From a virus: a DNA stretch of 37,592 nt. Positions 31,913 to 35,908 of the stretch are shown here, piece after piece. The translations under genes were made by a program, and so were the position numbers. The notes beneath the pieces were generated by a model. That model was not told the origin of the DNA. It ran no database searches and saw only the letters and a program-made list of their open reading frames with translations. Where the stretch lies: the IMG/VR virus record IMGVR_UViG_3300032342_000024, positions 1 through 37,592 of that record; one strand, 5' to 3'. Position 1 is the stretch's first letter; every line of letters begins with the position of its first letter.

Positions 31913-32171
31913 CGAAGATTGGAAATCTGAAAGAGAGAGAGTGAAGGCCGTTCTTGAAGAAGAGGATGCGTGGAATCATCTCGCATTCATCTATCTCATA
32001 CACATGGAGAATTCAGGGAAATATAATTTGATTTTCAAGAAAGACGGCACTCTCAATCGATCTTACAATATTCCCCGATTGATAGCGAAGCTTCGTGAGA
32101 CTATGGGTTTGGAGCCGATGGAGAGGTTGTCCATTCCCGATGCAGAATCTAAAGACATTGGAGGCGATTGA
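31908..32171 (+). CDS. Hypothetical protein ending in DIGGD
   Basis: 87 residues, charged helical N-terminus (NEDWKSERERVKAVLEEEDA) and an Ile/Leu-rich centre. The C-terminus LSIPDAESKDIGGD is made from two shared repeats, the CCATTCCCGATGCAGAA end repeat and the coupling module, so the last 14 codons are probably repeat-derived. Function unknown. Confidence 0.55.
   Translation: MNEDWKSERERVKAVLEEEDAWNHLAFIYLIHMENSGKYNLIFKKDGTLNRSYNIPRLIAKLRETMGLEPMERLSIPDAESKDIGGD
32127..32147 (+). repeat. Shared gene-end repeat, copy A
   Basis: TGTCCATTCCCGATGCAGAA, also at 33734-33753 and, with an indel, at 34859-34877. Encodes LSIPDAE here. Confidence 0.85.
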
Positions 32172-32176
32172 ATGAA
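32151..32176 (+). repeat. Coupling module copy 4
   Basis: GACATTGGAGGCGATTGA then ATG. Joins the 31908 gene to the first methyltransferase gene. Confidence 0.85.
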
Positions 32177-33233
32177 CTACGATAACCTCCCTTCGTGGTG
32201 GCCGTCCGACAAGCCGTGGATAATTCAGGATTGCTTGGAGGGGATGAAAAGTATTCCTGATAAGGCGGTCGATCTATTGATCGTAGACCCGCCTTACAAC
32301 GAAAACAAAGCCGAATGGGATAACGTTGACAATTACATTCACTGGTGGCAAGATTGTCTGAAGCAATTTGTGAGGATACTGAAACAGAATGGCGTTTTCT
32401 ATTTCTTCCAGATGAACATCGAAACGGCAATGAATATGCACCGCATCTGCAAGGAGAACGGTTTAATTCTTCGCCAGATGATAACGATAGATAAAGGACT
32501 CGCGAGTGTAGCTGGAAGAACATCGAATAGTCTACGGTCTTTTCCAAAAGCTACCGAATATCTATTCTATTACACATTTGAAGATACGACTGGTAGTGAA
32601 CAATTAAGCGATGCCTATCAAAAAATCAATCCGATGGCTAAATACCTCGAAGAAGAATTTATAAGGGCGGGAGTGACACAAGGCGATCTTAGAAAGCTCT
32701 TTCTGTCGAATACAAATAGAGAGACTGGATGTATTACTAATTGGGTCAAAGGGTATAATTTCCCCTTAGAATGGCAGTATGATAAACTTCGAGAATATCT
32801 GAACCGGGGTCAAAAGCAAATCACAGAGTTCCTCCGGCGGGACTACGAGGACCTCCGGCGGGACTACGAGGACCTCCGGCGGGACTACGAGGACCTGCGA
32901 TATACATTCAATCTGCCCTATGGCATTACAGATGTCTGGCAAATCAATTTCTATGAAGATATAATCCTTGAGCATGAGACTCCCAAGCCGACGAAAGTGA
33001 TTGAGCGCATTATATCAGCTTCTTCCAAAGTTAATGATCTCGTCCTCGACCCCTTCCTCGGCTCAGGAACAACGCTCTTAGCATGTCGCAAGACCGGACG
33101 CATAGGCTTAGGTTTTGAAATCAACCCCGAATGCGAATCAATCATCAGAGAGCGAAGCATGGCCGATGTTCCAGAATTGAAAGGAATCTTCGACTGGCGT
33201 AATGAACCAGAACCGGAGGTAGTTTCAAAATGA
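32172..33233 (+). CDS. DNA methyltransferase (DPPY type, probably N6-adenine)
   Basis: 353 residues. Catalytic motif IV DPPYN at 39-43 comes before the AdoMet motif DPFLGSG at 293-299, the beta-class order. The centre (about 130-240) is the target-recognition part, with ETGCITNWVKGYNFPLEWQY and three identical LRRDYED heptads at 221-241. The first 38 residues after LPSWW and the 44 residues from 290 are nearly the same as in the 35255 gene, but the centres differ. It transfers a methyl group to viral DNA. No partner endonuclease is seen, so an anti-restriction role is likely. Confidence 0.85.
   Translation: MNYDNLPSWWPSDKPWIIQDCLEGMKSIPDKAVDLLIVDPPYNENKAEWDNVDNYIHWWQDCLKQFVRILKQNGVFYFFQMNIETAMNMHRICKENGLILRQMITIDKGLASVAGRTSNSLRSFPKATEYLFYYTFEDTTGSEQLSDAYQKINPMAKYLEEEFIRAGVTQGDLRKLFLSNTNRETGCITNWVKGYNFPLEWQYDKLREYLNRGQKQITEFLRRDYEDLRRDYEDLRRDYEDLRYTFNLPYGITDVWQINFYEDIILEHETPKPTKVIERIISASSKVNDLVLDPFLGSGTTLLACRKTGRIGLGFEINPECESIIRERSMADVPELKGIFDWRNEPEPEVVSK
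32832..32894 (+). repeat. Three identical 21-bp repeats in methyltransferase
   Basis: Each unit encodes LRRDYED and the three are identical at the base level, so the expansion is recent. Gain or loss of a unit keeps the frame and changes the length of a coiled segment next to the recognition domain. Confidence 0.9.
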
Positions 33234-33435: not shown

Positions 33436-33440
33436 ATGAA
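33411..33440 (+). repeat. Coupling module copy 6
   Basis: GAGTCAGACATTGGAGGCG continuing to GATTGAATGAA. Starts the 33436 gene. Confidence 0.85.
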
Positions 33441-33816
33441 GAAAACCTGTAATAACTGCGGTCATTCTGACGGAATTTATTGTGAAGAACATGCCGGACT
33501 TTTCTGCCTTTTTTCCAATCCACGATGGTCGGGCGCATACGACCGTCTTCTGGAAAACTATGCTGTTGATTTATGGATCCCGAGACAGCGAACTCAGACA
33601 CGACAAATATCGCATACTTGGCAGAACGGACCTAATGGGAAGATTGTGGAGTTCGATGATTGCCATCTCTATCCCTGCAAGGATACGGCTCAAGGATGCC
33701 GTGCTTTCGGTCCGAGATTCTATTGTCCTCAGTTGTCCATTCCCGATGCAGAAACGACCAAGAGCGAAAGCCAGCACGACGGCATCAAACAGGAAAAGGA
33801 GAAAACGACTGGATAG
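33436..33816 (+). CDS. Cys-rich hypothetical protein
   Basis: 126 residues. CNNCG at residue 5, a Cys-His cluster (YCEEHAGLFC), and later CHLYPC and FYC suggest two metal sites. The end QLSIPDAETTKSE comes from the shared gene-end repeat. Function unknown. Confidence 0.6.
   Translation: MKKTCNNCGHSDGIYCEEHAGLFCLFSNPRWSGAYDRLLENYAVDLWIPRQRTQTRQISHTWQNGPNGKIVEFDDCHLYPCKDTAQGCRAFGPRFYCPQLSIPDAETTKSESQHDGIKQEKEKTTG
33733..33767 (+). repeat. Shared gene-end repeat, copy B
   Basis: Copy of the 32127 repeat extended to the right. Its last 23 bases (33745-33767) are identical to 34869-34891. Confidence 0.85.
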
Positions 33817-33837: not shown

Positions 33838-34968
33838 ATGCTAACGATCGGTTCGCTTTTCAGTGGGATCGGAGGTCTCGAACTCGGCTTGGAAAGAGCC
33901 GGGTTAGGCCCGGTCAAATGGCAGGTGGAGAATGACCGATACTGCAACCGAATCCTCGAAAAGCATTGGCCGGCCGTCAAGCGATACGGAGACATCCGAT
34001 CGGTCAAGTGGCGAAATGTCGAACGGGTCGATCTCGTCTGCGGGGGCTTTCCCTGTCAGCCGGTCTCGAACGCGGGGAAGAAGCAAGGAGATAAAGACGA
34101 AAGGTGGCTCTGGCCTGAATTCGTTCGTTGCCTTCGGACGATACGACCGGGCTACGCGATCGTGGAGAATGTTCCGGGGTTGTTCTCTATTGACGACGGA
34201 AGGATTGCCGGACAAGTGTTCGGGGATTTGGCCGTACTCGGGTATGATGCTCAATGGGGTATCGTATCGGCCTCGGATGTCGGGGCTCCCCACCTCCGCA
34301 AGAGGATATTCATTCTGGCCTACGCCAAACGCCTCGGACTCTCACGGCCATCAATACCAATATTCCAACGGGAATCACGCGAAGAAAACGCTTACGCTCG
34401 TCGGGAAAGCTCGGAAGTGGCCGACGCCGAGGGTTCGAGGATTATTGGGGGGGACGGGTTCACAGGAGATGCTACTTTCCTTGGTGGCTTCGGGAAAGAT
34501 GACCAAAGAAGAATTTATGGCGATAGCGCAGAGAAAGACTTGGCCGACTCCAACGGTTCAAGATTCAAAAAACAAGGGTGGGCCGAGCCAGTTCAAGAGA
34601 AATTCAATTCCATTGAATGCGATTGTAAAGATGTTTCCGACTCCGAAGGCTCAGAACGCGAAGGCTCCCTGTCCGCATGGTCGGGGAGGGCCGGGACTTC
34701 AAGAGGCCGTATTCTCGGAGGAGAAGATCATTGGCCAACTGAACCCGGTGTTTGTCGAGTGGTTAATGGGATTCCCAATCAATTGGACAGAATCAGATGC
34801 CTCGGCAACGCCGTCGTCCCGCAAGTCGCGGAGGCGATCGGCTTGATGATAGCGCAAATGTCCCATTCGATGCAGAAACGACCAAGAGCGACGGTCAGGA
34901 CGACGACATCAAGGACTGAGAAAATGATAACGCACGATGTCCGCAACGACGACGGGGGAGACAGATGA
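33838..34968 (+). CDS. dcm: DNA (cytosine-5) methyltransferase
   Basis: 376 residues, ATG with GGAGAGGGTG upstream. All core motifs are visible: I (LFSGIGG, 7-13), IV with catalytic Cys73 (GGFPCQPVS), VI (ENVPG, 110-114), VIII (RKRIFI, 154-159) and X (LGNAVVPQV, 322-330). Residues about 165-310 are the recognition region, with repeated (V/L)(A/S)D(A/S)xGS motifs (VADAEGS, LADSNGS, VSDSEGS). It methylates C5 of cytosine in viral DNA, probably against restriction. Almost its whole recognition region overlaps a second open frame. The last 35 residues derive from the shared end repeat. Confidence 0.9.
   Translation: MLTIGSLFSGIGGLELGLERAGLGPVKWQVENDRYCNRILEKHWPAVKRYGDIRSVKWRNVERVDLVCGGFPCQPVSNAGKKQGDKDERWLWPEFVRCLRTIRPGYAIVENVPGLFSIDDGRIAGQVFGDLAVLGYDAQWGIVSASDVGAPHLRKRIFILAYAKRLGLSRPSIPIFQRESREENAYARRESSEVADAEGSRIIGGDGFTGDATFLGGFGKDDQRRIYGDSAEKDLADSNGSRFKKQGWAEPVQEKFNSIECDCKDVSDSEGSEREGSLSAWSGRAGTSRGRILGGEDHWPTEPGVCRVVNGIPNQLDRIRCLGNAVVPQVAEAIGLMIAQMSHSMQKRPRATVRTTTSRTEKMITHDVRNDDGGDR
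33932..34846 (+). CDS. Overlapping +1-frame WPTP-motif protein
   Basis: 304-codon frame lying wholly inside the cytosine methyltransferase gene. It has its own family-like features: SFVAFGRYDRATRSWRMF, GIWPYSGMMLNGVSYR, four (W/F)PTP motifs (FWPTPNASD, KWPTPRVRG, TWPTPTVQD, MFPTPKAQN) and LNPVFVEWLMGFPINWTESD. Proteins with these motifs are familiar to me from phage genomes next to cytosine methyltransferase genes, function unknown. No clear ribosome site is seen at the 33932 ATG, so the true start may differ. Confidence 0.55.
   Translation: MTDTATESSKSIGRPSSDTETSDRSSGEMSNGSISSAGAFPVSRSRTRGRSKEIKTKGGSGLNSFVAFGRYDRATRSWRMFRGCSLLTTEGLPDKCSGIWPYSGMMLNGVSYRPRMSGLPTSARGYSFWPTPNASDSHGHQYQYSNGNHAKKTLTLVGKARKWPTPRVRGLLGGTGSQEMLLSLVASGKMTKEEFMAIAQRKTWPTPTVQDSKNKGGPSQFKRNSIPLNAIVKMFPTPKAQNAKAPCPHGRGGPGLQEAVFSEEKIIGQLNPVFVEWLMGFPINWTESDASATPSSRKSRRRSA
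34859..34891 (+). repeat. Shared gene-end repeat, copy C
   Basis: Matches copy B, with a one-base length difference that moves the reading frame, so the same DNA encodes MSHSMQKRPRA here rather than LSIPDAETTK. Confidence 0.85.
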
Positions 34969-35258
34969 CCGAAGCAGACCGTCAGCTCGTCGAAGCCCGC
35001 ACGAAGAACGCCGAGTACAAGGAGATCATCGAGGCGCAGGGTCGCGCGCTGCTCGTCATCCAAAAGGGCATCGAACGCAAGGTGGACGACGTCAAGATAC
35101 ACAACTCGAAGCACCCGAACAAGCGCGAGGTCCCCCTGTACATGTACGAGTGGCTGAAGTACATCACCAGAGCGCAGACGAGGGCGGCGTGCATCTTAGG
35201 GGACCAGATGGAGAGGAAGCACGGCACGGAGCCGGAGCAGGGGAGATTGATACCGTGA
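34965..35258 (+). CDS. Hypothetical protein between methyltransferases
   Basis: 97 residues, ATGA start. Helical throughout and basic in the middle (IERKVDDVKIHNSKHPNKRE), with G/C-ended codons typical of the rest of the genome rather than the AT-rich cassettes around it. No family recognised. GTGA coupling to the next gene. Confidence 0.6.
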   Translation: MTEADRQLVEARTKNAEYKEIIEAQGRALLVIQKGIERKVDDVKIHNSKHPNKREVPLYMYEWLKYITRAQTRAACILGDQMERKHGTEPEQGRLIP

Positions 35259-35908
35259 GCGAACTTCCTTCGTGGTGGCCGTCAGAGAAGCCGTGGATTA
35301 TTCAGGATTGCTTGGAGGGGATGAAGAGCATACCTGATAAGGCGGTCGATCTGGTGCTGACCGACCCGCCGTATAACGTCGGCTTGGACTATGGAGATAA
35401 GGTCGATGACGAGCGAACCGATTATGGAGAGTGGGTCGAATCGTGGTTCTCCGAATGTAAGAGGGTGTCGAAAATTCTCTTGGTAACTCCCGGCGTCGCA
35501 AACGTCACCCTTTACCCCAAACCCCTTTGGATGGGGTGCTGGTTCAAACACGGTTCACCGTCAAGATGCCCGACCGGATTCAACGCGTGGGAACCAATCC
35601 TAATCTATGGAAAGAGAATCGGAGAACAAACCACCGACGTATTCGACGCGATATTGGAAAGCGACGACAAGGCACTTGGTCATCCGTGCCCTAAACCGGT
35701 TGTTCTCTTTAGGCAGATAATCGAATTGTATAGCGAACCCGGCGACATCGTCCTCGACCCTTTCCTCGGCTCAGGAACAACCTTACTCGCATGTCGCAAG
35801 ACCGGACGAATCGGACTCGGCTTTGAAATCAATCCAGATTATGAATCAATCATCAGAGAACGCAGTATGCAAGACGTTTCAAAGATAGACGAATGGGGGA
35901 TAGCATGA
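35255..35908 (+). CDS. Compact DNA methyltransferase (DPPY type)
   Basis: 217 residues, GTG start. DPPYN at 37-41 and DPFLGSG at 168-174 give the beta-class order, with only about 125 residues between, a minimal recognition region. The N-terminal 38 and C-terminal 44 residues of the catalytic flanks almost match the 32172 gene. The centre (DYGEWVESWFSECKRVSKIL, SPSRCPTGFNAWEPILIYGK) does not, so its target site should differ. Likely anti-restriction. Confidence 0.85.
   Translation: MSELPSWWPSEKPWIIQDCLEGMKSIPDKAVDLVLTDPPYNVGLDYGDKVDDERTDYGEWVESWFSECKRVSKILLVTPGVANVTLYPKPLWMGCWFKHGSPSRCPTGFNAWEPILIYGKRIGEQTTDVFDAILESDDKALGHPCPKPVVLFRQIIELYSEPGDIVLDPFLGSGTTLLACRKTGRIGLGFEINPDYESIIRERSMQDVSKIDEWGIA

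Follow-up and report, generated by a model that had tools for sequence, protein, structure and literature searches.

A phage C5-cytosine methyltransferase locus with two conserved overlapping reading frames, the internal one most likely encoding target recognition and motif IX

The smaller gene of EcoHK31I reportedly lies inside the larger gene in another reading frame. M.EcoHK31I (YGGCCR) is a two-polypeptide C5-methyltransferase (C5-MTase) whose larger subunit carries motifs I-VIII and X and whose smaller subunit carries motif IX; its predicted target-recognition domain (TRD) was reported in the larger subunit (PMC3404938). M.AquI (CYCGRG) also makes one C5-MTase from two polypeptides, with motif X on the smaller subunit (PMC3404938). 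A search of one literature collection for overlapping methyltransferase genes in phages gave nothing beyond mentions of EcoHK31I and AquI.

The window analyzed here comprises positions 1-37,592 of virus record IMGVR_UViG_3300032342_000024, a tailed phage contig with matches to portal/Mu-F, large terminase, and major head proteins. It encodes one polypeptide (alpha) that bears motifs I-VIII and X and another (beta) that bears motif IX, the second gene being coding and contained within the first in another frame, as in the nested architecture of M.EcoHK31I. The pair differed from M.EcoHK31I in that the evidence placed the TRD in the smaller polypeptide, and from M.AquI in that motif X was on alpha with beta nested inside it. 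As the TRD placement in M.EcoHK31I is itself a prediction, the window pair is said to work like that enzyme by architecture and not by subfamily membership. The two-polypeptide kind was already known; the new elements are the breadth of the family, the placement of the recognition domain, and the evidence for an onset of beta coding between motifs IV and VI. The features of the locus, in window coordinates, were:

33838..34968, + strand: alpha, C5-cytosine methyltransferase subunit with motifs I-VIII and X (PF00145, PHROG_363, fold)
33853..33876, + strand: alpha motif I (SLFSGIGG), AdoMet binding (sequence; conserved in alignment A2)
33932..34846, + strand: beta, the WPTP protein in the open +1 frame (PHROG_1008, permutation and substitution tests)
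34051..34059, + strand: alpha motif IV (PCQ) with the catalytic cysteine (P71 and C72 invariant in A2)
34165..34173, + strand: alpha motif VI (ENV; E109 and N110 invariant in A2)
34297..34305, + strand: alpha motif VIII (RxR; R153 and R155 invariant in A2)
34313..34738, + strand: probable target-recognition region of beta with four W/FPTP motifs at 34316, 34418, 34541, and 34634 (region test, PTP excess, homology)
34357..34755, + strand: alpha linker, residues 173-305, stop-free, weakly constrained, and predicted disordered, with VADA/LADS/VSDS shadow motifs
34739..34789, + strand: probable motif IX block of beta, LNPVFVEWLMGFPINWT, missing from alpha (identity, invariant residues, AF2 helix)
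34801..34833, + strand: alpha motif X (LGNAVVPQVAE; G322 and N323 invariant in A2; predicted helices)

Both the alpha open reading frame and the 915 bases of open +1 frame were exactly as given in the preliminary description of this DNA. Alpha is a 376 amino acid protein with an ATG start that matched PF00145 (1.2e-47) and PHROG_363 (3e-77) in profile searches and carried the C5-methyltransferase motifs I, IV (PCQ), VI (ENV), VIII (RxR), and X (GNAV) in their expected order. The attribution of all core motifs to alpha held for I-VIII and X, but motif IX was missing and was located in the +1 frame. The AlphaFold (AF2) model of alpha was mostly above pLDDT 90 for residues 1-172, together with the motif X helices, and its catalytic fold matched M.HhaI (Foldseek 1.9e-17 over about 168 columns). 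Residues 173-305 had pLDDT values mostly below 50 (about 30-50) and no secondary structure, the model contained no ordered recognition domain, and mean pair identity of this linker across relatives was 0.10-0.23. Alpha did not have the standard single-chain C5-MTase form, in which one chain also carries the recognition domain and motif IX, since residues 173-305 are variable, predicted disordered, and lack motif IX, and the IX block lies in the +1 frame. The M.AquI-type split was also not found in the window, as alpha reads through to motif X. A 45-nt repeat (89% identical) was present at 33744-33788, where it closes the gene at 33436-33816, and at 34868-34912, directly after alpha motif X and in a different frame, so that the last ~30 residues of alpha look duplicated rather than part of the enzyme.

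Beta spans 304 codons from the ATG at 33932 and matched PHROG_1008 with 6.2e-30 over residues 13-293 and with 3.7e-22 for the part after 34244; no Pfam match was found for it. The PHROG_1008 label reads only "DNA methyltransferase" and does not identify the protein as a second subunit from an overlapping frame. The base-for-base correspondence claimed earlier between WPTP and VADA motifs was borne out, with four W/FPTP sites facing LAYA, VADA, LADS, and VSDS in alpha, respectively, where "at least three" had been counted. The IX block had a mean pair identity of 0.77, unmatched by any other part of the two frames, with E276, L278, and G280 of beta invariant and residues 272-279 forming a helix in the AF2 model. 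Apart from this helix, beta modelled alone gave a poor structure (pLDDT 62, pTM 0.26) with no fold match in the PDB, which could be expected for half a domain without its partner. Its sequence had no match among solved structures.

Comparison with permuted sequences upheld the earlier view that the overlap is unlike a chance one. When the synonymous codons of alpha were permuted in the window, the beta region was expected to hold 5.3 stops, and all 300 permutations contained at least one. With a profile built from diverged relatives, window beta reached 248 bits, compared to 97 +/- 15 for the permutations. Across 70 non-redundant relatives, scored with profiles from which close relatives had been left out, beta averaged 190 bits vs. 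67 for permutations and all 70 loci beat all 60 permutations; the reverse test, permuting beta codons and scoring alpha, gave 216 vs. 45, again with every locus (70/70) above all permutations. The signal was strong in the WPTP recognition region (46.1 vs. 3.6 bits for relatives and null; 77.9 vs. 7.6 for the window) and in the block LNPxFVEWLMGFPxxW (59.4 vs. 8.3 bits for relatives and null). All 86 pairs found through beta had it in the +1 frame of alpha, and 84 of the 86 alphas read through to motif X. A sample free of beta bias was obtained by searching with the catalytic (N-terminal) domain of alpha alone and taking the best 80 of some 600 matches, and a beta-like open reading frame was present in +1 at 80/80 of these loci, a few of which match weakly and could be shadow. 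As the sample was drawn from the top of a list of some 600 matches, the claim covers this C5-MTase branch and not all C5-MTases. Within the same best 80 of some 600, the 72 loci with motif X in alpha included 49 with the strict motif IX pattern in +1 (0.5 expected) and contained 124 PTP motifs in that frame (10.5 expected); many of the remaining loci had the block variants ALMG, FLMG, or TLMG by eye. A sequencing frameshift artefact was ruled out by the number of loci sharing the same frames, and a standalone WPTP gene unrelated to methyltransferases was rejected, a C5 catalytic domain lying beside or over WPTP at the loci examined.

Relatives of the pair were found in several layouts. The single-chain actinophage enzymes of Gordonia phage Phinally (gp5), Mycobacterium prophage T49-1 (gp22), and Rothia phage Spartoi (gp40) have the same parts as the window pair but in one frame and one chain, namely motifs I-VIII, LPTP repeats, a WMMG block (FxEWMMGxPxGxVT-like), and motif X. 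They match both PHROG_363 and PHROG_1008 (to 2.8e-64), and Spartoi gp40, the shortest single-chain form, covers PF00145 positions 3-321 of 324. The LPTP-WMMG block being in frame with the catalytic domain in these enzymes, homology suggests that beta is most likely the target-recognition and motif IX part of a C5-MTase. In the split forms Eesa gp39/40, Lilbooboo gp32/33, Steamy gp77/76, Ovechkin gp69/70, and ArV1 67a/67b, alpha stops near motif VIII and a second gene carries LPTP, IX, and X, the genes being separate or overlapping and each having its own start; the partition in Eesa, Lilbooboo, Steamy, and ArV1 is M.AquI-like. Eesa gp40, which includes motif X, matched the beta profile with probability 97.9 and E 5e-13. 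The suggestion that WPTP proteins always overlap a dcm-like gene was therefore not sustained, as they also occur in adjacent split genes and within one chain. The nested layout of the window is shared by Paenibacillus phage Diva gp49/gp50, annotated as two DNA methyltransferases with the second named "g49 internal gene"; Diva beta matched PHROG_1008 at 1e-73 and is only ~30% identical to window beta.

The partition between frames was not fixed, a further layout with motifs IX and X both in the alpha frame and only LPTP in +1 being present at Gordonia phage CheeseTouch (L103) and at L141, L154, L165, L138, and L142. L123, in support of beta as the motif IX part, has a canonical motif IX (RRLTPAECERLQGFPDGW) in +1, and its motif X belongs to alpha. 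Loci L123, L149, L151, and L155 had another recognition type, in which the end of the catalytic domain is overlapped by a +1 frame encoding LSDILE...LSPKACxGILRRAxKRGKxLP, and a second C5-MTase branch may therefore also be overprinted. An architecture tree had nested labels in 125 of its 159 rows and at least 23 label changes, under an automatic classification with an arbitrary root in which several labels are doubtful (e.g., L127, L136, and L181 as "single chain"). In Mycobacterium phage Bipolar (L092), gp69 at 1865-2416, annotated "DNA methyltransferase," was the beta frame and the overlapping alpha was unannotated; in E. coli prophages L197-L200 alpha was annotated and beta was open and unannotated.

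The +1 frame might be open and rich in motifs only through the conserved residues and codon usage of alpha. This was true in part for its upstream third, where beta dSN/dSS before PCQ (motif IV) was 0.95 (0.71-1.30; 39 pairs, alpha catalytic domain) and beta before the first WPTP scored 92 vs. 62 bits for relatives and null, largely a shadow of alpha. However, neither the WPTP region nor the IX block arose in permutations that kept the alpha protein and codon usage, other enzymes have this block as an in-frame fusion, and substitutions that change beta only were depleted. Across 16 independent close pairs, rates per site in the overlap from TRD to motif X were 0.043 for changes altering both proteins, 0.130 for alpha only, 0.046 for beta only, and 0.283 for neither, such that beta-only changes were ~3 times rarer per site than alpha-only changes. 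For this overlap, the per-frame substitution check proposed beforehand gave a dNN/dNS of 0.33, indicating purifying selection on beta, and a dNN/dSN of 0.93, indicating that alpha amino acids are close to neutral. Homologues with an intact enzyme and a broken +1 frame, which would have spoken against a coding overlap, were looked for and not found among close relatives. A chance shadow is already refuted from about motif VI onwards and is vanishingly improbable for the locus, and it is nearly certain that beta is a conserved frame that truly codes for protein. Alpha and beta are both coding and conserved, in a fixed +1 relation, and the earlier statement that both are constrained stands in this respect; in the recognition region, it was beta that was constrained and alpha that was near-neutral.

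The recognition domain could instead be the VADA region of alpha, with the WPTP protein a younger overprinted partner in another role (e.g., a regulator), for which the TRD predicted in the larger subunit of M.EcoHK31I (PMC3404938) would be a precedent. The recognition region contained 130 PTP motifs vs. 16.3 expected given alpha (70 loci), but the 55 ADA motifs in alpha were no commoner than the 66.3 expected from beta, and VADA is thus a shadow of WPTP. In addition, the alpha stretch is variable, predicted disordered, and near-neutral, and split relatives are without it altogether while LPTP is kept. This placement of the TRD is consequently highly improbable, and the proposed overprinting of WPTP on a recognition domain in alpha is reversed in direction: the constrained frame in the recognition region is beta, and the VADA stretch of alpha is the overprinted side, if anything is. 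No alpha stops occurred across this region, vs. about 201 expected from the codons of beta, in a set of loci chosen for alpha reading through to motif X, as it does in 84 of the 86 pairs. A programmed +1 frameshift near the end of motif VIII, giving a fused alpha-beta chain while unshifted alpha provides motif X, would restore the domain order of the single-chain relatives. Against it, the fused chain would be without motif X, the genes of the split relatives have their own starts, and beta constraint begins well upstream, in PCQ-ENV, as for an independently started protein. In the 39 pairs, beta dSN/dSS was 0.67 (0.49-1.02) for PCQ-ENV, 0.37 (0.27-0.52) for ENV-GYD, and 0.41 (0.29-0.62) from GYD to motif VIII. 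The average onset of beta coding thus falls between motifs IV and VI, far ahead of the recognition region; this speaks for an internal start rather than a frameshift where the domains meet, and the latter is quite improbable.

With beta read as an independently started protein, its functional form is probably shorter than the 915-base open frame, because the frame before motif IV had no beta constraint across relatives. Candidate ATG starts in the window were at 33932, 34016, 34169, 34244, and 34247, with ribosome-binding sites that are at best moderate in strength, otherwise weak, and poorly spaced. At the GYD site, ATG was enriched (67 vs. 38.6) and TAT was favored over TAC; beta constraint begins upstream of this site.

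The C5 gene was flanked by two N4/N6-type DNA methyltransferase genes (32172-33233 and 35255-35908) that share similar stretches of 115 nt at 86% and 134 nt at 81% identity, marking a duplicated gene and making, with the C5 gene, a cluster of three DNA methyltransferases. The first of the two contained an in-frame 21-nt tandem repeat (~three copies, RRDYEDL) at 32826-32899. A 25-nt sequence, TCAGACATTGGAGGCGATTGAATGA, was present in four copies (31888, 32151, 33245, and 33415; 68-100% identical). The copies at 32151 and 33415 each finish on a start codon, that of the gene at 32172 and 33436, respectively, and the sequence therefore looks like a repeated ribosome-binding and start cassette. Searches of the window recognized no restriction endonuclease beside these genes.

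We propose that the locus specifies one C5-cytosine DNA methyltransferase made as two polypeptides from the same DNA in two frames, and alpha and beta very probably form one heterodimeric enzyme with recognition in beta. Alpha, in frame 0, would give the catalytic domain with its AdoMet site (motifs I-VIII) and the closing helix of motif X, while beta, from its own internal start in +1, would give the small domain with the WPTP-repeat target-recognition region and motif IX. Opposite that region, alpha would be a flexible stop-free bridge reaching motif X. The two chains are expected to co-fold into an M.HhaI-like enzyme methylating a specific sequence in the phage DNA, and this methylation would probably serve escape from host restriction. 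The idea of a WPTP partner survives in that the +1 protein accompanies the enzyme, although it is most likely the recognition domain and motif IX themselves rather than a separate protein.

The long same-strand overlap is unusually clean, as the two frames can be tested against each other across >150 diverged loci, and the location of the TRD in two-polypeptide C5-MTases becomes testable. The recognition half of many phage C5-methyltransferases has been missed or annotated apart from the catalytic half, and specificity predictions made from alpha alone would consequently read the wrong frame. On balance, we favor a widespread phage family in which the recognition half is encoded wholly in +1 relative to the catalytic half, the catalytic frame being there a stop-free disordered bridge, and in which the lineage moves between single-chain, split, and nested forms; it would then be the small subunit to which the TRD of the M.EcoHK31I kind has to be reassigned, and one subunit only would be annotated in many genomes of phages and prophages.
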